From positions 1 through 44,046 of IMG/VR virus record IMGVR_UViG_3300025892_000041: DNA of 44,046 nucleotides. One strand, written 5' to 3'. The position numbers and the translations under genes are program-made. The notes below the pieces were generated by a model, which saw nothing but the letters and a program-made list of their open reading frames with translations, ran no database searches and was not told where the DNA came from. Positions within the stretch are counted from its first letter, which is position 1; every line of letters begins with the position of its first letter. Positions 1 to 15,720 of this stretch are shown piece by piece. The DNA comes from a virus.

Positions 1-289
1 GATTATCAAACATTTTAAGTTCAGGTAATAAAGGATCATCTTCAGCAATAATTACAGTATGGTCAAACATATAATCCATCCATTCTTTAGGAGATTTACC
101 ATCAATTTTAGTTTTAGCTCTTTTCATTCCACCAAAATCCCAAACCCAATTTCTATGATCTAATTCACCTTCAAACCATACTTTAAAAGAAATCCCATAT
201 CCATGTAAAAATCTACAATGTGTGTCTTTAGCTTTCCATTGACGAAATACAGTAGAAAAACCATCAAAAACTTTTGTACTTACAAACAT
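1..289 (-). CDS. queD: QueD-like 6-carboxytetrahydropterin synthase (partial, 3' end outside window)
   Basis: The first 96 residues are visible; the gene runs off the left edge. The ATG is at 287-289. The residues F-R-Q-W, then T-H-C-R-F-L-H-G-Y and later W-V-W-D-F-G follow the pattern of the 6-pyruvoyl-tetrahydropterin synthase/QueD family, including the catalytic Cys just before the L-H-G motif and a later F-D-H-T. The family turns dihydroneopterin triphosphate into 6-carboxy-tetrahydropterin, an early step to preQ0. The usual H-G-H zinc pair reads H-G-Y here, and the first His is also not at the expected place. I believe this is a known phage-type variant but cannot verify it. It lies 2 bases after a thioredoxin gene and in the same run as queC and a DpdA-like gene, which supports a role in deazaguanine synthesis. 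GTP cyclohydrolase and QueE are not in the window and may lie further left. Confidence 0.82.
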   Translation of the reverse strand, partial: MFVSTKVFDGFSTVFRQWKAKDTHCRFLHGYGISFKVWFEGELDHRNWVWDFGGMKRAKTKIDGKSPKEWMDYMFDHTVIIAEDDPLLPELKMFDN

Positions 290-291
290 AT

Positions 292-549
292 TTAATTATT
301 GAACCAATTTAATACTTGTTCTTTAGTCCAACCACCAGCTGTAGTTCTTTTAATTTCATTACCATTTAAATCAGTTAATACTAAAAGTGGTATACTTTTA
401 ACTTGATATTGTTCTGTCATCGCAGCATCATATTCTGTGTTTATACTTTTTACATTTATACCTTCACGAGCAATTTGATCCATTACAGGTTTTAATACAC
501 TACAAGGTTCACACCATGGGGCATTAAAAAATAACATTCCTTTATTCAT
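292..549 (-). CDS. Thioredoxin/glutaredoxin-like small redox protein
   Basis: This 85-residue protein has the thioredoxin active site W-C-E-P-C (Cys13 and Cys16) after a short first strand, and the cis-proline loop S-I-P-L-L-V later. Length fits a minimal phage thioredoxin. It is cytoplasmic, with no signal peptide. In phages such proteins commonly serve as electron donors for ribonucleotide reductase, and this genome carries nrdA and nrdB at 18-21 kb. The link to RNR is inference. It sits between a small membrane protein gene and queD, with 2 bases before queD, so it is co-transcribed with the queD/queC group. Confidence 0.9.
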   Translation of the reverse strand: MNKGMLFFNAPWCEPCSVLKPVMDQIAREGINVKSINTEYDAAMTEQYQVKSIPLLVLTDLNGNEIKRTTAGGWTKEQVLNWFNN

Positions 550-567
550 AATTTTATTTAATTTAAT

Positions 568-765
568 TTATACTAATTCTTCTATTATACCTATTACTTC
601 ACTTAAGATAAGAAAAGTAACTGCCCAACCCAAACTAAAGAGAATAGCAGCATAACCTATTATTCTAACACCTGACTTTACAAAACTAATTTGTTGGTGA
701 AGTTTTGGATCTGGGATTTTGTCTATTTTGGTATCAGGATAATCCCATCTTTCTTTATTTGCCAT
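568..765 (-). CDS. Small membrane protein, unknown function
   Basis: This 65-residue protein has a hydrophilic N-terminal third with W-D-Y-P-D-T and a hydrophobic stretch at about residues 34-60 (G-Y-A-A-I-L-F-S-L-G-W-A-V-T-F-L-I-L), which fits one long or two short membrane spans. No enzymatic motif is visible. It follows another small membrane protein gene (770-928) by 4 bases and precedes the thioredoxin gene. I do not recognise a function. Confidence 0.72.
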   Translation of the reverse strand: MANKERWDYPDTKIDKIPDPKLHQQISFVKSGVRIIGYAAILFSLGWAVTFLILSEVIGIIEELV

Positions 766-769
766 ATTT

Positions 770-928
770 TTATTTATTTAATTCTGAAAATAATGTAGAT
801 GCTATATTCCATATTATAAATATAAAAAATAGTATTACTAAATTATTTAAATTTGCATCAATACTGTTTAATGCATCTACTACATTATTAATTCCATTAA
901 TTGTTACTTCATTTTTTATTTCAAACAT
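770..928 (-). CDS. Very small membrane protein (52 aa)
   Basis: An open frame of 52 codons plus TAA starts at ATG 926-928. The N-terminal half is polar and Asn-rich; residues 30-41 (L-V-I-L-F-F-I-F-I-I-W) form a clear membrane segment followed by a short tail. It sits between the tRNA gene and the 65-residue membrane protein, with 4 bases to the next ATG, so the spacing is typical of a real gene in this operon. Its function is unknown. It is short, so coding status rests on spacing and on the membrane segment. Confidence 0.6.
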   Translation of the reverse strand: MFEIKNEVTINGINNVVDALNSIDANLNNLVILFFIFIIWNIASTLFSELNK

Positions 929-942
929 ATTTTAATTTTTAG

Positions 943-1015
943 TTGTCCCTGGAGGGATCGAACCTCCACTCTTCTGCACCAAAAACAGACGTGTTGCCAG
1001 TTACACCAAAGGACA
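943..1015 (-). tRNA. tRNA-Gln, anticodon TTG
   Basis: Read on the minus strand, a full cloverleaf can be folded. The acceptor stem is TGTCCTT against AGGGACA with A as discriminator. The anticodon stem is TCTGT/GCAGA with the seven-base loop TTTTGGT, giving anticodon TTG. The T stem is GGAGG/CCTCC with TTCGATC in the loop. The U1-A72 start pair is typical of tRNA-Gln. CCA is not encoded. It lies between queC and a small membrane protein gene. Gln tRNA (anticodon TTG) is not a queuosine substrate, since those have GUN anticodons, so its position near the que genes is probably not functional coupling. Confidence 0.93.
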
Positions 1016-1021
1016 TTTATA

Positions 1022-1855
1022 TTAAGCTAAGTGTTCAGCTAGTAATTTTTCTACATGATTTTTAGCAACTTTATATTCTACTGGACCAGTTTCATCAGCA
1101 TATTCAGTAGGATCAGGTCTTCCTAATTTAATAAATGCTTCAATTCTTTCTACAGAAGAAGCTGATTTATAATCTGAATACCACTTCCAAGAATTAGTTT
1201 CGGGTCTGTAATAATGTTTAATAGGTTTGTAGGATGTATTAGTTCTTTTATAAACTTCATCAAAGTCTATTCCTAATCTTTCACACCAAAATAAACCATC
1301 TTCTAATATTCCAAACTTATCACCATATAGATAAGGTGTAATATATTTTACTTTTTCTGCTTCCCAATTACCTTGTTTAAAAGCTTCATAATCAGCATCC
1401 CTAAATTCTTGTCTACAATCAGGATAAATAGCATGATCACCAGCATGGATACCCATTGCAATATCTACTTCACAATTATTTTCATTAGCAATAGATAGTG
1501 CTACTGCTTGAATAATTGATGAAAACATTTTATTTCTATTAGGTACAACTGTATCTTTCATATTATCTTCTTCATAATGTCCTTCAGGAACATCTTCTCC
1601 TCCCTTAACTAAATTAGAATTTAATAAATCTACTAAACCCTCTAATTTAACTACTTGATATTTGACTTTATAACCATTTTTACCCAAATAATCTATTAAT
1701 TGTTGTGCTCTTTCTAATTCAACATCATGCTTTTGACCATAATCAAAACCAACTGCTGTTACTTGATATTTTTTTCCTAGTAAATATAATAATACTGTAC
1801 TTGAATCCATCCCACCTGATAGGGATAATACTGCTTGTTTTTTATTTATTGACAT
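1022..1855 (-). CDS. queC: 7-cyano-7-deazaguanine synthase QueC (zinc cysteines absent)
   Basis: This 277-residue protein opens with the PP-loop S-G-G-M-D-S-S (residues 13-19) of ATP-pyrophosphatases. It also has F-D-Y-G-Q-K-H, P-N-R-N and Y-P-D-C-R-Q-E-F, all signatures of QueC, which converts 7-carboxy-7-deazaguanine to preQ0 with ATP and ammonia. Oddly, the C-terminal zinc site of the family (a W-S-C then C-x-x-C-x-x-C pattern just before E-R-x-E-A-F) is replaced: the region reads T-N-T-S-Y-K and later D-Y-K-S-A-S-S-V-E-R-I-E-A-F, with no cysteines. The start overlaps the end of the DpdA-like gene by 10 bases, indicating translational coupling. Together with queD and the DpdA-like gene it suggests preQ0-type DNA modification. 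Confidence 0.93.
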   Translation of the reverse strand: MSINKKQAVLSLSGGMDSSTVLLYLLGKKYQVTAVGFDYGQKHDVELERAQQLIDYLGKNGYKVKYQVVKLEGLVDLLNSNLVKGGEDVPEGHYEEDNMKDTVVPNRNKMFSSIIQAVALSIANENNCEVDIAMGIHAGDHAIYPDCRQEFRDADYEAFKQGNWEAEKVKYITPYLYGDKFGILEDGLFWCERLGIDFDEVYKRTNTSYKPIKHYYRPETNSWKWYSDYKSASSVERIEAFIKLGRPDPTEYADETGPVEYKVAKNHVEKLLAEHLA

Positions 1856-2637
1856 TCTTTAAATTTTTTAAATTGTGTTAAATTGTGATTAATATTATAT
1901 AATATTTCTTGAGTCATAGGTGTTAAACCAACAGTATCTATTTTTGTAGATGATTTAGTATACAACCCATTAGAACTATATTTTACTCCCTCTAACCCAT
2001 GAATAATAGGATTTGAAGTATCTATAGATTCAATAAAAGGAAAATCATTATAATAAGCAAATTCCTGAGGTAAAGCACACCCTAATAAATGAACTCTATC
2101 AGTTTTTTCTATTAAACCTGATTTATACATTTTTGAAATAGTCATTATACGACCCATCATTTTACCTACTAAAGGGTTTGGGTGTGGAAATTCTTCAGCA
2201 TACCAATCTGCCCCATAACTAAATGCTATTTTTTTATAACCTTGTACTTTTAGTATGTTATAACATTGAAATGCTTCATGGTAATTTTGTGCTTGAACAA
2301 CTGCTACTTTAGTTACACCTTTTGGTAATTTTATGGACATCCACCTTTTAGCATTAACTAATGTTGCTGTTTGATCTTGCCAAACATCTGGTACTACAAA
2401 TTCATTAGGTTTTAATTCATTAATCCAATACATTAATCTGTCTGAATCATATGCTACACCTAATTCATGAAGTGAATTATCCATTATAATATATCTACCA
2501 TCCTTTTTAGCTTTATAAAAATGATTTTTGTAAATTTCATTTTGATCTAATAAATGAGGTAAACAATATTCATAATCATTAATATCATAACTCCTAGAAA
2601 GCATACTTATAGGTAATTCGTGACTAGTCTTTGGCAT
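1846..2637 (-). CDS. dpdA: DpdA-like TGT-fold transglycosylase (7-deazaguanine insertion into DNA)
   Basis: This 263-residue protein shows the ordered motifs of a tRNA-guanine-transglycosylase barrel: I-M-D-N-S (Asp53, like the TGT substrate-binding Asp of T-D-S-G), V-P-D-V-W-Q-D (82-88), V-V-Q-A-Q-N (113-118, like the TGT I-V-Q-G), H-L-L-G-C-A (183-188) and E-S-I-D-T-S (Asp206, candidate nucleophile). It is shorter than tRNA-directed TGT (about 370) and has no zinc-binding Cys cluster, as known for phage DpdA enzymes that exchange guanine in DNA for a deazaguanine. It is immediately followed by queC (10-base overlap). The ATG at 2635-2637 is preceded by AAATAAAGGAAT, a leader shared with other genes here, and by a host-type promoter at 2657-2686. 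A tRNA substrate cannot be excluded from sequence alone. Confidence 0.75.
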   Translation of the reverse strand: MPKTSHELPISMLSRSYDINDYEYCLPHLLDQNEIYKNHFYKAKKDGRYIIMDNSLHELGVAYDSDRLMYWINELKPNEFVVPDVWQDQTATLVNAKRWMSIKLPKGVTKVAVVQAQNYHEAFQCYNILKVQGYKKIAFSYGADWYAEEFPHPNPLVGKMMGRIMTISKMYKSGLIEKTDRVHLLGCALPQEFAYYNDFPFIESIDTSNPIIHGLEGVKYSSNGLYTKSSTKIDTVGLTPMTQEILYNINHNLTQFKKFKECQ

Positions 2638-2768: not shown

Positions 2769-2966
2769 TTAGTCTTCTTCTACAAATTCTACATCTCCAT
2801 AATCATCAATTGGTTTATCTCTTACTAGATCCCAATCTGCATTATCTATAATTTCATCTCGGACATCTTCATCACCCGTTTTCCATAGTGCTAATTCTTC
2901 TTTTGTTAACACATATTCTTCCCATCTGTAATTACAGTAATTTACATTTCTTGTTAATTTTGCCAT
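2769..2966 (-). CDS. Small acidic protein, unknown function
   Basis: This 65-residue protein has an aromatic N-terminal part (N-Y-C-N-Y-R-W-E-E-Y) and an Asp/Glu-rich C-terminal half ending in E-F-V-E-E-D. Its ATG overlaps the stop of the UV endonuclease gene in a TAATG arrangement, so it is translationally coupled to it. No recognisable domain. Small acidic phage proteins often mimic DNA or bind host enzymes, but there is no direct evidence here. Confidence 0.72.
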   Translation of the reverse strand: MAKLTRNVNYCNYRWEEYVLTKEELALWKTGDEDVRDEIIDNADWDLVRDKPIDDYGDVEFVEED

Positions 2967-3862
2967 TATATTACTCTTTTAAAAATTGCTTGTTCTTTTA
3001 ATTTTGCCTCAATTACAATATCTGGTTTTAAACCATAAGTATTGATTTTTTCATAAATTAAATCAGAATGAGCTTGAGGACGAATTGACTCATCTAATTT
3101 TTCTTTTCTGCGACTTTCTGAATAATGACAACATTGTGCGATTCCTTTAGGCCATGTAACGGAAGCAGTTTCTAATGCCTCTTTTTCAGTTAAACCCCCA
3201 GTATTAAATTTATGATGAAAATAATCAAATGTAATTGGAATCCCAATAGCTTGATAAACAAAATCAAATAAATCAGCTACCGAATATTCATTTGGACTAT
3301 CATCATTTTCAACAACTAAACGTTTTTTAGTATCTTCATTTAATAATTCAAAATTTTTACAAAAACGTTTTAATGTTTTTTCTTTATCACCATAAGCTCC
3401 TCCTACATGAATATTAATTTTGTTATAGGGTGAAGGATCAAATCCCATCATATTAAATTGTTCGCTATGAAAATTTAATTCTCTAACTGTTTTTTCTACA
3501 ACTTTTTGATTAGGTGAAGCTAAACAATTATAAGGGCCAGGGTGCATTGTAAGTCGTTGACCTGCATCTGTTGCAATTTTACCAATTTCAAGCATTATGG
3601 ATGCAATTTCATCATAATCCTTTAGATCTTTGACATTATATTCATCTGACCAAGGGAATATTTGGGATGATAATCTAAATAACTTAATACCCATTTCATT
3701 ATTCCATTGAATATATGTTTTAAGATCCTTAACATTGAGTAATGCAAGATCAGAGACATAATCTTCTCCATTAGCATCATATGTTTTTCGACGCATAGTT
3801 CGATTCGTAGTAATTTTATTTTTGCTAAGTGCTGTGTTTATACACGCGTATCCTAAATTCAT
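2966..3862 (-). CDS. uvsE: UV damage endonuclease (UvdE/UvsE family)
   Basis: This 298-residue protein begins with L-G-Y-A-C-I-N and T-T-N-R-T, hallmarks of the UVDE family, a TIM-barrel nuclease that nicks 5' of UV lesions and other distortions. Metal-ligand motifs appear in order: M-H-P-G (His103), N-I-H-V-G-G, V-V-E-N-D-D, F-D-Y-F-H-H-K and H-Y-S-E-S-R. Length is normal for bacterial UvsE. Its ATG overlaps the preceding stop by 4 bases (ATGA). Its job here is presumably direct repair of sunlight damage to the phage DNA, comparable to T4 DenV but from an unrelated family. Confidence 0.94.
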   Translation of the reverse strand: MNLGYACINTALSKNKITTNRTMRRKTYDANGEDYVSDLALLNVKDLKTYIQWNNEMGIKLFRLSSQIFPWSDEYNVKDLKDYDEIASIMLEIGKIATDAGQRLTMHPGPYNCLASPNQKVVEKTVRELNFHSEQFNMMGFDPSPYNKINIHVGGAYGDKEKTLKRFCKNFELLNEDTKKRLVVENDDSPNEYSVADLFDFVYQAIGIPITFDYFHHKFNTGGLTEKEALETASVTWPKGIAQCCHYSESRRKEKLDESIRPQAHSDLIYEKINTYGLKPDIVIEAKLKEQAIFKRVI

Positions 3863-4389: not shown

Positions 4390-4823
4390 TTTTTTCGCAT
4401 AAAAAGAAAAAGTTCTTCAATAGTACCATCAAACTCCTCTATTGTTTCTTTAATAATATCTTTTGAAATTTTAAAATGTTTTTTAAAATCATTTACTAAT
4501 CTATCCATTCTATCAAATTCATCTTTCATTCCATCTTCAAATAATTTATTATAGCGTTTTCTTGCCCTAATTTCAATTTCTGTATATAGATTATCAAGTT
4601 CATAATCTTCACCTTGGTAATTATTAATAAAACTTTCCTGTTCTTCTTTCATCCAATGTAGTTCCCATTTAGCTTGTTCAAAAAAGGGTGAATAATCAAA
4701 ATCACCATTTTTAATTTTATCAATTAGTGGTGCTTTATATGGAAGATTTCTATGTGTTCTAAATCGTCTCCACCAATAAAAGGGTAATGCTCTTCTACCA
4801 CTTGGTTTTTTAGGTACTCTCAT
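4377..4823 (-). CDS. Hypothetical protein, 148 aa
   Basis: The N-terminal 30 residues are basic and aromatic (R-A-L-P-F-Y-W-W-R-R-F-R), which could bind nucleic acid. The rest is charged and helical (E-I-E-I-R-A-R-K-R-Y-N-K and repeated K-D/E pairs), likely coiled-coil. Its ATG overlaps the ligase stop (TAATG), so the two are translationally coupled. No domain is recognised. Confidence 0.72.
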   Translation of the reverse strand: MRVPKKPSGRRALPFYWWRRFRTHRNLPYKAPLIDKIKNGDFDYSPFFEQAKWELHWMKEEQESFINNYQGEDYELDNLYTEIEIRARKRYNKLFEDGMKDEFDRMDRLVNDFKKHFKISKDIIKETIEEFDGTIEELFLFMRKNLVS

Positions 4824-6079
4824 TACACTTCTCTTTTTTCACCATGAATTACTTTTACAGTTGGGAATCTTAATGAAATCCCACCTTTATCGTTTTTAGT
4901 TTCCTCAAAATATTGAACTGTGATTATTTTTCCAAGAATAGATCCATCCATATACTCCAACCTTTGTTCTTGGGTAAACCCACTACCAACTTTTACTATA
5001 TAACCCTTATGTTCAATCCATACTTGTGATAACATTGTCATTGATTCTGACTTACCATTTCTAACTACTTCATGTGTATCAATGTCCCAACCTAATACTT
5101 CATATTCAGCATCATGGAATGACTTAACTTTAACTAAATTTTTAGTACGCTTACCTTCATATCCAACATCCTTACGTAACATTAAACCCTCCCAATTATC
5201 TTTATTTTCAACAGTATTCCAATATTCAAAGTGATCTTGATCTGTTATTAGAGTTTGTTCTGTAAAACGTAAAATACTTTTATCAATAAATCTACCTCTT
5301 AACCATTGTTTTAAAATAATTAATCTTGGATATAATTTCCTCTCACTTTTTTCAGCTTCAAATTCAGATTTAGTCAACATATCGAATATCATAAATGCTG
5401 GATTTTCAATCTGATGGTCTTTACGTCTTAATTGTTTCATAACACCTTGAAAATCTTCATTACCCTCATCATCAACTAAACAAATCTCACCATCAAATAC
5501 ACTATTAATAATACCAGTTGCTTCAATTGCTTCTTTAACTTTATCTAATGTAGTAAATTCTTTACCCATTCTACTATAAAGCTTACATTTACCATTTTCA
5601 TCTGTAATAGCTAAACAACGAACACCATCTAATTTTCTTGAAACCCACCACCTATCATTCCAATCACATTTACCTTTATATTCTTGGGCTAATGCTACCT
5701 TAAATGTAGGAATTAAACCTGGTATTGCTTTATTAATTGTAGAAGCTCCAACTCTAATATCTAAATCTTTATCAATAATTTTATAAATTAACTTATCATT
5801 AAACCCATTAACTAATTTAATAGCATTATGACCCGTAACTTCTCTATTTGTTAATTTATCTAATACTTCAAATAAAACACTTGGATATCCAAGATAAGTT
5901 TCACATAAATGTGAATTTTTAATGCATGTTTTACTTGTAACGTGATACTGTTTGTATGGGTTATATGTAGCTTCAAGTATCTTGTGTATAAACGTACTAC
6001 TGCGCGTTATAATCGCAATTTTATCGGTAGCACTACTAGTACTCCTCATTTCTTCTATAAATTTATTTAATTCTTCCAT
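4823..6079 (-). CDS. ATP-dependent DNA ligase (T4 gp30-like)
   Basis: This 418-residue protein has the nucleotidyltransferase motifs of ATP-dependent ligases in order: motif I K-L-D-G-V-R with the adenylated Lys149; L-Y-S-R-M-G-K-E; V-F-D-G-E-I (motif III); F-M-I-F-D-M; E-G-L-M-L-R-K (motif IV) and L-V-K-V-K (motif V). The C-terminal OB-fold region ends with T-V-K-V-I-H-G. The N-terminal 130 residues form the helical DNA-binding part. It seals nicks in replication and recombination and is somewhat shorter than T4 gp30 (487). It is co-transcribed with the downstream hypothetical gene (TAATG overlap). Confidence 0.95.
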   Translation of the reverse strand: MEELNKFIEEMRSTSSATDKIAIITRSSTFIHKILEATYNPYKQYHVTSKTCIKNSHLCETYLGYPSVLFEVLDKLTNREVTGHNAIKLVNGFNDKLIYKIIDKDLDIRVGASTINKAIPGLIPTFKVALAQEYKGKCDWNDRWWVSRKLDGVRCLAITDENGKCKLYSRMGKEFTTLDKVKEAIEATGIINSVFDGEICLVDDEGNEDFQGVMKQLRRKDHQIENPAFMIFDMLTKSEFEAEKSERKLYPRLIILKQWLRGRFIDKSILRFTEQTLITDQDHFEYWNTVENKDNWEGLMLRKDVGYEGKRTKNLVKVKSFHDAEYEVLGWDIDTHEVVRNGKSESMTMLSQVWIEHKGYIVKVGSGFTQEQRLEYMDGSILGKIITVQYFEETKNDKGGISLRFPTVKVIHGEKREV

Positions 6080-11940: not shown

Positions 11941-14900
11941 TTAATTTTTAATTATTCTTTTACTATATCTTTTATCTTCATGTATTATTGTCATATTATA
12001 AATACCTGAAGGGAAATTATTTATATCAATTCTATTAGAAGCATTATTAGATTTAATTAATAATTTACCAGTCATATCATAAAGTTCAACTTCTATTTTT
12101 AATCTAGTTTCTATATGAATTAATCCTCTTGTTGGGTTGGGATAAACAACTATACCTAAAGCAGAAACATCAGGAATATTAGTTGGCCAACCTAATTGAC
12201 AATAATCATACATTGATTGGCATGTAGGATCCCAATCATTTGTACAACAATAATCATCTACATCTATTACCCAGGCATAACATTCATCATTTAACCAATA
12301 AGGTATTCCAGGTCCTCCATAACAACCAGCATCATATAAACATGCTGTTGAATCTGAAGTATTTGCTAAAGGATCATAATTGAATGCTGAAACATCAGTA
12401 CAACCTGTTATAGGTAAAATACAAGTTCCATTATCTGTGTTTGCTAATATGTCATAATTTAGAGCTGTAGAATCAGTACATCCAAATATTACTGGTGTAC
12501 AAGATCCATTATCAGTATTTGCTAAAGGATTATAGTTAAATGCTGTTGCATCCATACAACCATAAATGTAAGGAATACAACTACCATCATCACTATTTGC
12601 TAAAGGATCATAATTAAATTGTGTAGGATCAGTACAACCATAAACGTATGGTAGACATGAACCATCATTTACATTAGCAAGTGGGTTAAAATTAAATGCT
12701 GTTGAATCAGTACAACCTAATACCGTAGCTATACATGAACCATCATCAGTATTTGCTAATGAATTATAATTAATTGCAGTAGAATCTGTGCATCCTAAAA
12801 TTATTGCTATACAAGAATTATCATTTGTATTTGCTAGAGGATTGTAATTTAAAGCAGTTGAATCTGTACAGCCATATACAAATGGAATACAGGATCCATT
12901 ATCAGTGTTTGCTAAAGGATTATAATTGAATTGGGTATTATCAGTACAACCATAAATATAAGGTATACAAGATCCATTATCTGTATTTGCTAAAAGATCA
13001 TAATTGTATTGAGTTGGATCTATACACCCATATACAAAAGGAATACATGAACCATCATCTGTATTTGCTAATGGGTCAAAATTAAATTGTGTTGCATCAG
13101 TACAACCATAAATATAAGGTATACAACTTCCATCATTAGTATTAGCAAGTGGATTATAATTAAAATAATTTGGATCTGTGCAACCATAAATAATTCCTAA
13201 ACATGATCCATCTTCAGTATTTGCTAATGGATTGTAGTTAATTGCTGATGTATCAGTACAACCTAAAACAACAGGAATACAACTTCCATTACTTGTATTT
13301 GCTAATGGGTCATAGTTAAATGCTGTTGAATCCATACAACCATATACAAAGGGAATACAACTCCCATTATCTGTATTTGCTGAAGAGTTAAAATTAAATT
13401 GTGTTGGATCTGTACAACCAAACACAACAGGTACACAAGACCCATTGTCTGTATTAGCTAAAGGATCATAGTTAAATGCTAAAGGATCAGTACAACCATA
13501 AATTGGTAAAATACATGTTCCATTATCATCTGTTGCTGTGATATCAAAATTTAAAGCAATAGGATTAGTACAACCAGGTATTTCTAATTCATCACAAATA
13601 CCATCTCCATCTGTATCTAATAAACATACATTATTACAATCATAATATTGTGCTGGATATTGGCATCCATTATTAACTGTTGCTGTTATATCAAAATTAC
13701 AGGCAACTGTATCCATACAACCAATATAATAACACGAACCATCATCAAAATTAGCGAATGAATTATAATTATCTGCTGTTGAATCAGTACAACCATTAAT
13801 AAAAGGTATACATGAACCATCATCTACATTTGCTAATGGGTTGTAATTTATTGCAAATACATTCATACAACCTAAAATGTAAGGTATACATGAACCATCA
13901 TCTACATTAGCTGTAGAATCATAATTAAATGCTAATGAATCCATACAACCTAATATTGTAGGAATACAATAATCACCACAAAATGGCACTGCAGAATATG
14001 TTACCCAAAATGGTGAGCTAAAAGATTGTAATGCACCTTGACCATTATTAGCAAAAGGATTAACACCTTCATGCATTAATACAACACCATCTGCATTTGT
14101 TAGTTTAAATGAATTATGCCAAGTTTGAAATTGTACTTCTTCTGGTGGTTGTTGTGGCCCACCTACTTCAAAATAATATACGTTAACAGGAATACCTGCG
14201 TCTAATACTAATAAAAATGAATCTTGATAACTACCAGGACCCATTGTAAATGTACCAAAATTAATTCCATTTTGATAAACACCAATATATGAATTACCCC
14301 AACCATCACCACCAGCATCACCAATCCATAATTGATATTGACAATCAGGTACTATATCATTAATAGTTGCATTAGGATTATAATTAAAAGCAGAAGAATC
14401 AGTACAACCATAAATGTGTAAATTAACACATGAACCATCGTCAATTGTAGCTAATGGGTTATATTCTTGATAATCATCATCCATACAACCATATATTGGA
14501 GGAGATGATAAACAAGGTACACCAAATTGTTGTCCTGAATATAATACATTTCCAAATCCAGGATTATCCATCCACCATATAGTATCTCCTAAACAATCAT
14601 ATATAACAACCATCCCATCTAATGAACCACCTGAAGTAGTTCCTGCCATACCATCACCATATGTATCTGTTATAATTAATTCAAATCCTGCTGTTTGGTC
14701 TACACAAAAATTATAAGTATAAGTTTGACCTATATCATTAAAATTATATGCTCCTGGAAGTTCTTCTTGTAATACACCATAACCACCACTTGTAATAGAC
14801 CAACCAGTTTCACTTGGCCAGTTATCAAATGTAATTTCCATTGTAATTTGATAAGTTGTGTTTGTATCACAAGTTGTACCAGCACATGAACCATCATCAA

Positions 14901-15720
14901 ATGTGGCCCATGGGTTATAAGTTGGTTGTGTTGGATCTGTACATCCTGCTATACAAGAAGTAGGTGTGTAAGCCATAGTATCTGAAAAAGTACTATCTGC
15001 AAATTCCACCATACCATAATGTTCTACTGACCAGTTAGGAGGCATTTGCCCATTACCTGCATATACTGCAAAATCTTGTTGATTAGGACCAAGTCCGTAT
15101 TGAAAAGGACCTACACCATTTTCATTCCAATACCAAAATCTAACTGGATTACAGTTACCATTTGATATATCATTTTGCCAAAAGAATTGAACTAATGTTT
15201 GTCCTGTTGGTAGACAAGTTTGTTGTACAGTATCAGACAAAAGTCCACCACAAGCTGGATAGGTACAAGGACCAGGAAAGTATGCTGTTGAGTCATAATT
15301 TAATCCATTAGGATCCAAACAACCAAATGTAGGAGGAGCACAAGGTGCAACAGTTAATGTTTGTACTAAACTATCTCCAAAGTTTCCTGCTACATACATT
15401 AATGTATCTTGACACGAATTACTAATCATAAACCAACCATCAGTTCCACCCCATTGAGATGAACCTAAACCATCACCAAAAGAATCATATATACCAGCAA
15501 TTATTGTACCACCAAGTTGAACAATAGTATCATACATTGTATTTGGTAGCATGTTGCTATCGTTTTCTATAATAATAGGTGATCCACCAGGAGGTGTAAT
15601 ATTCCAACTTGTTTCAGATGGGTAATCATCTGTCATCAATTGGATATGGATCCAAGAACCCTGTGTATAACCTAAAAAAGGTATTAAAAATGTTAATAAT
15701 AATAACTGTAATTTTTTCAT
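11941..15720 (-). CDS. Giant secreted Cys-rich repeat protein with type IX secretion sorting domain
   Basis: This 1259-residue protein has a signal peptide (M-K-K-L-Q-L-L-L-L-T-F-L-I-P-F-L-G-Y-T-Q). Two copies of a secreted domain with Y/W-P-S-E-T-x-W-x-I-T and D-x-Y/F-G-D-G follow at about 25-125 and 285-390. About 24 copies of a Cys-rich unit G-C-T-D-x-T-A-F-N-Y-N-P-L-A-N come next, 16 of them in an unbroken tandem. The last 80 residues (V-V-Y-P-N-P-T-R-G, V-E-L-Y-D-M-T-G-K-L-L, G-I-Y-N-M-T-I, K-R-I-I-K-N) match the type A sorting tail of Bacteroidota type IX secretion. The host machine would thus export it to the cell surface or medium. It stands in the envelope/lysis block between a thioredoxin-fold exported protein and the holin-like gene. 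A virion role is unlikely because of the sorting tail; an adhesin, shield or host-surface modifier is possible. Confidence 0.9.
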   Translation of the reverse strand: MKKLQLLLLTFLIPFLGYTQGSWIHIQLMTDDYPSETSWNITPPGGSPIIIENDSNMLPNTMYDTIVQLGGTIIAGIYDSFGDGLGSSQWGGTDGWFMISNSCQDTLMYVAGNFGDSLVQTLTVAPCAPPTFGCLDPNGLNYDSTAYFPGPCTYPACGGLLSDTVQQTCLPTGQTLVQFFWQNDISNGNCNPVRFWYWNENGVGPFQYGLGPNQQDFAVYAGNGQMPPNWSVEHYGMVEFADSTFSDTMAYTPTSCIAGCTDPTQPTYNPWATFDDGSCAGTTCDTNTTYQITMEITFDNWPSETGWSITSGGYGVLQEELPGAYNFNDIGQTYTYNFCVDQTAGFELIITDTYGDGMAGTTSGGSLDGMVVIYDCLGDTIWWMDNPGFGNVLYSGQQFGVPCLSSPPIYGCMDDDYQEYNPLATIDDGSCVNLHIYGCTDSSAFNYNPNATINDIVPDCQYQLWIGDAGGDGWGNSYIGVYQNGINFGTFTMGPGSYQDSFLLVLDAGIPVNVYYFEVGGPQQPPEEVQFQTWHNSFKLTNADGVVLMHEGVNPFANNGQGALQSFSSPFWVTYSAVPFCGDYCIPTILGCMDSLAFNYDSTANVDDGSCIPYILGCMNVFAINYNPLANVDDGSCIPFINGCTDSTADNYNSFANFDDGSCYYIGCMDTVACNFDITATVNNGCQYPAQYYDCNNVCLLDTDGDGICDELEIPGCTNPIALNFDITATDDNGTCILPIYGCTDPLAFNYDPLANTDNGSCVPVVFGCTDPTQFNFNSSANTDNGSCIPFVYGCMDSTAFNYDPLANTSNGSCIPVVLGCTDTSAINYNPLANTEDGSCLGIIYGCTDPNYFNYNPLANTNDGSCIPYIYGCTDATQFNFDPLANTDDGSCIPFVYGCIDPTQYNYDLLANTDNGSCIPYIYGCTDNTQFNYNPLANTDNGSCIPFVYGCTDSTALNYNPLANTNDNSCIAIILGCTDSTAINYNSLANTDDGSCIATVLGCTDSTAFNFNPLANVNDGSCLPYVYGCTDPTQFNYDPLANSDDGSCIPYIYGCMDATAFNYNPLANTDNGSCTPVIFGCTDSTALNYDILANTDNGTCILPITGCTDVSAFNYDPLANTSDSTACLYDAGCYGGPGIPYWLNDECYAWVIDVDDYCCTNDWDPTCQSMYDYCQLGWPTNIPDVSALGIVVYPNPTRGLIHIETRLKIEVELYDMTGKLLIKSNNASNRIDINNFPSGIYNMTIIHEDKRYSKRIIKN
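12340..13575 (-). repeat. Tandem array of about sixteen 78-bp units inside the secreted protein gene
   Basis: Each unit encodes 26 residues on the plan G-C-T-D-x-x-x-x-N-Y-N-P-L-A-N-T-D-D-G-S-C followed by a short link such as I-P-Y-I-Y. Units differ at DNA level by synonymous and conservative changes, so this is protein-level repetition kept by selection rather than a very recent copy event. Eight less regular units lie outside the array. Confidence 0.92.

Follow-up and report, generated by a model that had tools for sequence, protein, structure and literature searches.

Swapping 7-deazaguanines into virus DNA is a known trick against bacterial defences, and a module of this likely kind, with queD-, queC- and dpdA-type genes, lies at the left end of the IMG/VR virus contig IMGVR_UViG_3300025892_000041. 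The window analysed here is that whole contig, 44,046 bases long, and immediately left of queD is the contig end. On the minus strand a UvdE-type endonuclease is followed by two small open reading frames (ORFs), a 263-residue protein, QueC, a tRNA-Gln, two more small ORFs, a thioredoxin and QueD. The genes sit where a preliminary description of the sequence had placed them, with queD close by and the predicted transglycosylase gene directly before queC; these two share 10 bases, as they do in the related contigs L002-L007 and L023. The features are as follows.

2..289, minus strand: queD-like gene (6-carboxytetrahydropterin synthase), 96 residues, 3' part lost at the contig end (PF01242, PHROG)
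292..549, minus strand: thioredoxin-like gene between queC and queD (PF00085, 39.5 bits, cut-off 23.5)
568..765, minus strand: small membrane-protein-like ORF (ORF only)
770..928, minus strand: small ORF (ORF only)
942..1015, minus strand: tRNA-Gln, anticodon TTG (ARAGORN)
1022..1855, minus strand: queC-like gene (7-cyano-7-deazaguanine synthase) without zinc-binding cysteines (PF06508)
1846..2637, minus strand: predicted DNA-guanine transglycosylase of DpdA type, with the fold of tRNA-guanine transglycosylase (TGT) and no zinc site (AlphaFold2 model)
2966-3862, minus strand: UvdE/UvsE-type UV endonuclease, upstream of dpdA (PF03851, 197 bits)
4823-6079, minus strand: ATP-dependent DNA ligase, upstream of dpdA

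Sequence families were nearly silent on the 263-residue protein and could not by themselves settle its identity. Pfam returned no TGT match for it and only DUF6610 below that family's cut-off, no NCBIfam matched, a phmmer search against PDB sequences found nothing meaningful, and none of 22 related records contained a Pfam TGT match. PHROG assigned it to phrog_19058, of unknown function (E 4e-42), and PADLOC gave a weak DpdA match (E 7.6e-4). A structure prediction, which the preliminary description had asked for, was made with AlphaFold2 using 16 relatives taken from viral contigs (predicted local distance difference test, pLDDT, 89.5; predicted template modelling score, pTM, 0.87). Foldseek matched the model best to TGTs from bacteria (E from 7.9e-8) and to DpdA 7ui4 (E 7.3e-7), a DNA preQ0 insertase from the bacterium Salmonella. 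VIA-align superposed the model on archaeosine TGT (arcTGT) 1iq8 with Z 17.7 and a root-mean-square deviation (rmsd) of 3.1 over 234 aligned residues, and on DpdA 7ui4 with Z 17.5 and rmsd 3.2 over 232 residues at 18% identity; the fold is alike in the latter pair, although 7ui4 has 413 residues. The model thus predicts a TIM-barrel TGT fold for the window protein.

Residues D53, D84, Q115, H183 and D206 are invariant in all 17 aligned sequences, and Q117 varies. Among 84 longer homologues the motifs DNS, VxQ and HLLG are present in every one, and VPD, which contains D84, in 82. With residue roles assigned as in Zymomonas TGT, the two putative catalytic aspartates and the putative base-recognising Asp/Gln stand in the right order. 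The motif order proposed earlier, Asp53, Gln116 and Asp206, stands for both aspartates and needs correction in between: residue 116 is Ala, the glutamine is Q115, and the invariant D84 had been overlooked. Selection is purifying on both dpdA and queC, with ratios of nonsynonymous to synonymous substitution rates (dN/dS) of 0.08-0.26 and 0.18-0.27, respectively (7 pairs each).

A TGT fold would also suit an enzyme that, together with QueC and QueD, raises queuosine in host tRNA and so helps translation, and Tominaga et al. discuss translation as one possible role of queuosine genes in marine Bacteroidetes viruses (PMC7198788). Several observations make this improbable. The CxCxxC zinc motif of TGTs is found in 0 of the 84 longer homologues; it is likewise missing from all 18 members of a comparison set in which 11 rows come from named phages, and its absence is common to every phage DpdA compared. 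The earlier description of a TGT-fold enzyme without the tRNA-type zinc site therefore holds. The phage tRNA carries the anticodon TTG rather than GUN, and the closest annotated relative is named as a DNA guanine transglycosylase. QueF scored above its cut-off only in Flavobacterium phage vB_FspM_immuto_2-6A (MW353175; hereafter immuto), in 1 of 26 and 1 of 22 searched, and queA was found in 0 of 22 records; no family search was made for ArcS, QueF-like, Gat, DpdL or DpdM. With neither queF nor queA, a role in queuosine-tRNA is unlikely, and preQ0 (7-cyano-7-deazaguanine) or ADG (7-amido-7-deazaguanine) is the expected base, in line with the preQ0 or derivative first suggested. Two other sets of candidates were rejected: below-cut-off QueF matches in G019, G021, G035 and G037 sit at folE positions and probably reflect the shared T-fold, and formyltransferases in G004 and G041 lie away from dpdA and by eye do not resemble that of immuto.

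The nearest named relatives of the window DpdA come from immuto and the Campylobacter firehammerviruses. Identity is 36.5% to CPT_0056 of firehammervirus CP220 and 38% to the immuto protein over residues 1-233. Run against 18 sequences, a window-clade profile gave 242.6 bits for immuto and 185.8 for CP220, followed by MA9V-3 (65.1), BSTP5 (58.4), Youna2 (54.5) and phiST (41.3); lowest were CAjan (5.1), KVP40.0122 (-0.1), which entered the comparison as a guess from its gene neighbourhood, phi3ST:2 (-1.5) and Iggy-lineage HTN2 (-2.1), the Rosebush-group protein being unreported. In the DpdA tree the CAjan/Iggy pair forms a separate branch (100/100), and the window, marine, immuto and CP220 proteins (nine rows) come together with moderate support (80/82). 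On these sequence comparisons the window DpdA groups with the firehammervirus type. A DpdA3 subfamily that permits complete guanine replacement was reportedly named by Cui et al. (2023, in Nucleic Acids Research, NAR) and connected with phages of this sort; both the firehammervirus and the immuto DpdA would presumably fall within it. If so, the grouping is already known, and the window protein is one more member of it.

Members of this family are found almost entirely in viruses: viral contigs gave at least 584 matches, against 8 contigs of metagenome-assembled genomes (MAGs) in a collection of 84,980 species genomes. Three phage-family contigs (L195, L200, L202) lie inside MAGs labelled Candidatus Pelagibacter, Woesearchaeota and Legionellales, probably through binning errors. 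In the Cellulophaga phage phiST (L181) and the Chryseobacterium phage MA9V-3 (L182), a distant DpdA homologue accompanies queD, queE and folE; the stretches read contain no annotated queC, which suggests a carboxy-deazaguanine or plain deazaguanine base there. In firehammerviruses, 7-deazaguanine derivatives are reported to replace the deoxyguanosine of the DNA completely (PMC10273834). Hutinet et al. 2019 describe Campylobacter phages as highly modified with the deoxynucleoside of ADG (dADG) yet without a recognised DpdA (PMC6884629). The homology of CPT_0056 (L026 11995-12771, annotated as hypothetical) suggests that it is likely the firehammervirus DNA-guanine transglycosylase.

The counts of pathway genes cover 86 IMG/VR stretches, the window and the CP220 and immuto stretches, 89 sources altogether. 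All were picked by similarity to the window DpdA, so percentages describe one clade, and they include near-duplicates (75 distinct DpdA, 67 distinct QueC and 61 distinct QueD sequences). The genes dpdA, queC, queD, queE and folE occur in 89, 76, 70, 53 and 38 sources, respectively. Many misses fall at contig ends, and the CP220 stretch L026 stops short of that phage's queC, which was found elsewhere in its record. Three of the five genes are in the window, and all five are in relatives such as L002, L004, L005 and L007, the nearest contigs, whose DpdA proteins are 92-93% identical to that of the window. These four share the order ligase, uvdE, dpdA, queC, thioredoxin, queD, queE and folE; queE and folE, which the preliminary description proposed to seek to the left of the window, are thus found there in the closest relatives. 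UvdE/UvsE and the DNA ligase each occur in 8 of the 89 sources, mostly the nearest relatives of the window. A thioredoxin lies between queC and queD in the window and in many relatives (thioredoxin in 38 of 89). The usual radical-SAM motif is CX3CX2C; QueE of the clade has CX3CX7C in 48 of 54 ORFs (e.g. L005 12743-13516, L007 12718-13500 and L020 12868-13650).

The window QueC matches PF06508 strongly (E 5.3e-36, 124.5 bits, cut-off 22). Canonical QueC (PF06508 cluster 1) is described as having SGGxDS, YxQxHxxE, VPxRN, YPDC and a zinc site, C(x)8CxxCxxC (PMC13329287). All four substrate motifs are present in the window protein, as SGGMDS, YGQKHDVE, VPNRN and YPDC, and the zinc site is absent. 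None of the 76 QueC homologues contains CxxCxxC; the 72 in which the site is covered read TxTSY where zinc-keeping comparators have SCY or TCY, and in the alignment the other three cysteine positions are Asp, Ser and Ser. By its sequence, then, the window protein is a QueC-like, zinc-less variant. PF06508 also includes protein-deazaguanylating enzymes of the Qat/Cap9 type (PMC13329287), and with its altered zinc motif the window QueC might be one of these rather than a base synthase. We regard this as extremely unlikely: none of the four canonical substrate motifs is lost from the window QueC, and two of them, YPDC and VPxRN, are lacking in QatC according to the same paper; in addition, queC stands in an operon with queD, queE, folE and dpdA.

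The zinc cysteines are also gone from the QueC of Iggy-lineage HTN2, whose gene shares 99.3% nucleotide identity with Iggy queC, and they are kept in CP220 QueC. The QueC tree needs two losses of the zinc site; its starred branches force two, though the branches are long. Judged by this tree, the site was lost separately in the window clade and in the Iggy lineage. A literature search, with narrow terms, found no reports of a zinc-less QueC.

QueD departs from expectation as well. The window protein matches PF01242 (30.8 bits, cut-off 22.4) and PHROG 'QueD-like' (E 3.4e-25) and reads CRFLHGY where the HGH zinc motif is expected. Within the clade, HGY is present in 69 of 70 QueD sequences, the remaining one being a fragment, and HGH in none of the 70. 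QueD binds zinc through three histidines, one upstream and two in HGH; in an alignment with E. coli QueD the upstream one is replaced by a hydrophobic residue. A model of the full-length L005 QueD (pLDDT 88.3) aligned with E. coli QueD 4ntn at Z 13.6 and with Wolinella WS1659 at Z 14.9, which predicts that the clade QueD retains the PTPS/QueD fold. HGY extends beyond the clade to HTN2, phiST, MA9V-3 and phi3ST:2, and HGH occurs in CAjan, a Rosebush-group phage and BSTP5. In FolE the CxHH and HxC motifs are intact in 37 of 38 sequences, and a fully zinc-free pathway was rejected on that account. FolE1, QueD, QueC and TGT are reported to need zinc (PMC9508795).

Comparison with named systems places the module. 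Immuto comes closest: its QueC is 65% identical to that of the window, its QueD 69% identical to that of L005, it combines a zinc-less QueC with an HGY QueD as in the window clade, and queE and folE are present. It differs in that its queC lies ~15 kb from its dpdA and that queF and a formyltransferase lie near its dpdA, which points to a base derived from preQ1. CP220 has the DpdA homologue CPT_0056 with QueC, QueD and FolE, but its genes are scattered over the genome, its QueC zinc cysteines are kept and dADG is reported (PMC6884629). The Queuovirinae (CAjan, Iggy lineage) hold queE, queC, queD, folE and dpdA in one cluster, and zinc ligands are similarly missing from QueC and QueD of the Iggy lineage, whereas the CAjan/Iggy DpdA belongs to its separate branch, barely seen by the window-clade profile. 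The module is thus of a known kind, phage 7-deazaguanine DNA modification, with a short DpdA of the firehammervirus/immuto type and variant QueC and QueD.

We propose from homology that FolE, QueD, QueE and QueC would convert GTP to preQ0, and that the DpdA-type protein would cleave guanines from replicated DNA at the glycosidic bond and insert the preQ0 base in their place. D206 would be the likely nucleophile and D53 the likely general acid/base, and the modified DNA would resist host restriction enzymes. The match to DpdA 7ui4 and the queE and folE genes of relatives support a 7-deazaguanine DNA modification module, as first proposed, and we put the probability that it modifies phage DNA in this way at about 0.87. 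Three points weigh against it. The genome is incomplete on its left side, so that the window's own genome shows no queE, folE or later modifying enzyme. The arcTGT and DpdA structures tie (Z 17.7 versus 17.5), so the fold by itself cannot separate a tRNA substrate from a DNA substrate. Zinc ligands considered necessary for activity are absent from QueC and QueD, which makes their product less certain.

On balance the inserted base is probably preQ0. The chief alternative is that the same module works with a zinc-free QueC that stops at the amide, giving ADG in DNA as in the firehammerviruses. The QueC reaction passes via ADG (PMC13329287), the window QueC has lost its zinc site, and the window DpdA groups with proteins of CP220 and the firehammerviruses, for which dADG is reported (PMC6884629). 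However, CP220, a dADG phage, keeps the zinc cysteines in its own QueC, and the Iggy lineage lacks them although the report for Iggy is of dPreQ0 (Olsen 2023); zinc loss therefore does not predict ADG and was rejected as a marker of its production. Immuto, moreover, combines the same QueC type with QueF, which uses preQ0. We consider ADG unlikely as the base, though far less so than a role in tRNA.

For preQ0 as the inserted base, the extent of replacement is the weakest step. Because the DpdA clusters with those of the firehammerviruses and immuto, guanine may be replaced extensively or completely and not just at a motif; near-complete replacement falls somewhat short of an even chance in our judgement. 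We also offer, tentatively and as a combination we would narrowly bet against, that in this clade of marine Bacteroidota phages the pathway is zinc-sparing, in that of its four steps with zinc-dependent cellular enzymes three (QueD, QueC and the transglycosylase) work without their zinc sites and only FolE keeps its site, that it still makes preQ0, that a transglycosylase of unusually small size exchanges much or even all of the genomic guanine, and that QueC lost its zinc site at least twice independently in DNA-modifying phages. Elsewhere in the window, a 1259-residue protein (11941-15720, minus strand) contains many GCTDPxAxNYxPxANxDDGSC-like repeats, and its C-terminus looks like a Bacteroidota sorting domain, which hints at a Bacteroidota host.

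Through this module the likely guanine replacers gain a group of uncultured phages that is very abundant and looks mostly marine. CPT_0056 provides a concrete candidate for the Campylobacter-phage transglycosylase that was not found in the 2019 survey, although its assignment may have followed in the meantime. A QueC and a QueD without zinc sites put a textbook requirement of the pathway in question, and guanine replacement in these phages would have consequences for restriction assays, nanopore calls and the recovery of virome libraries.

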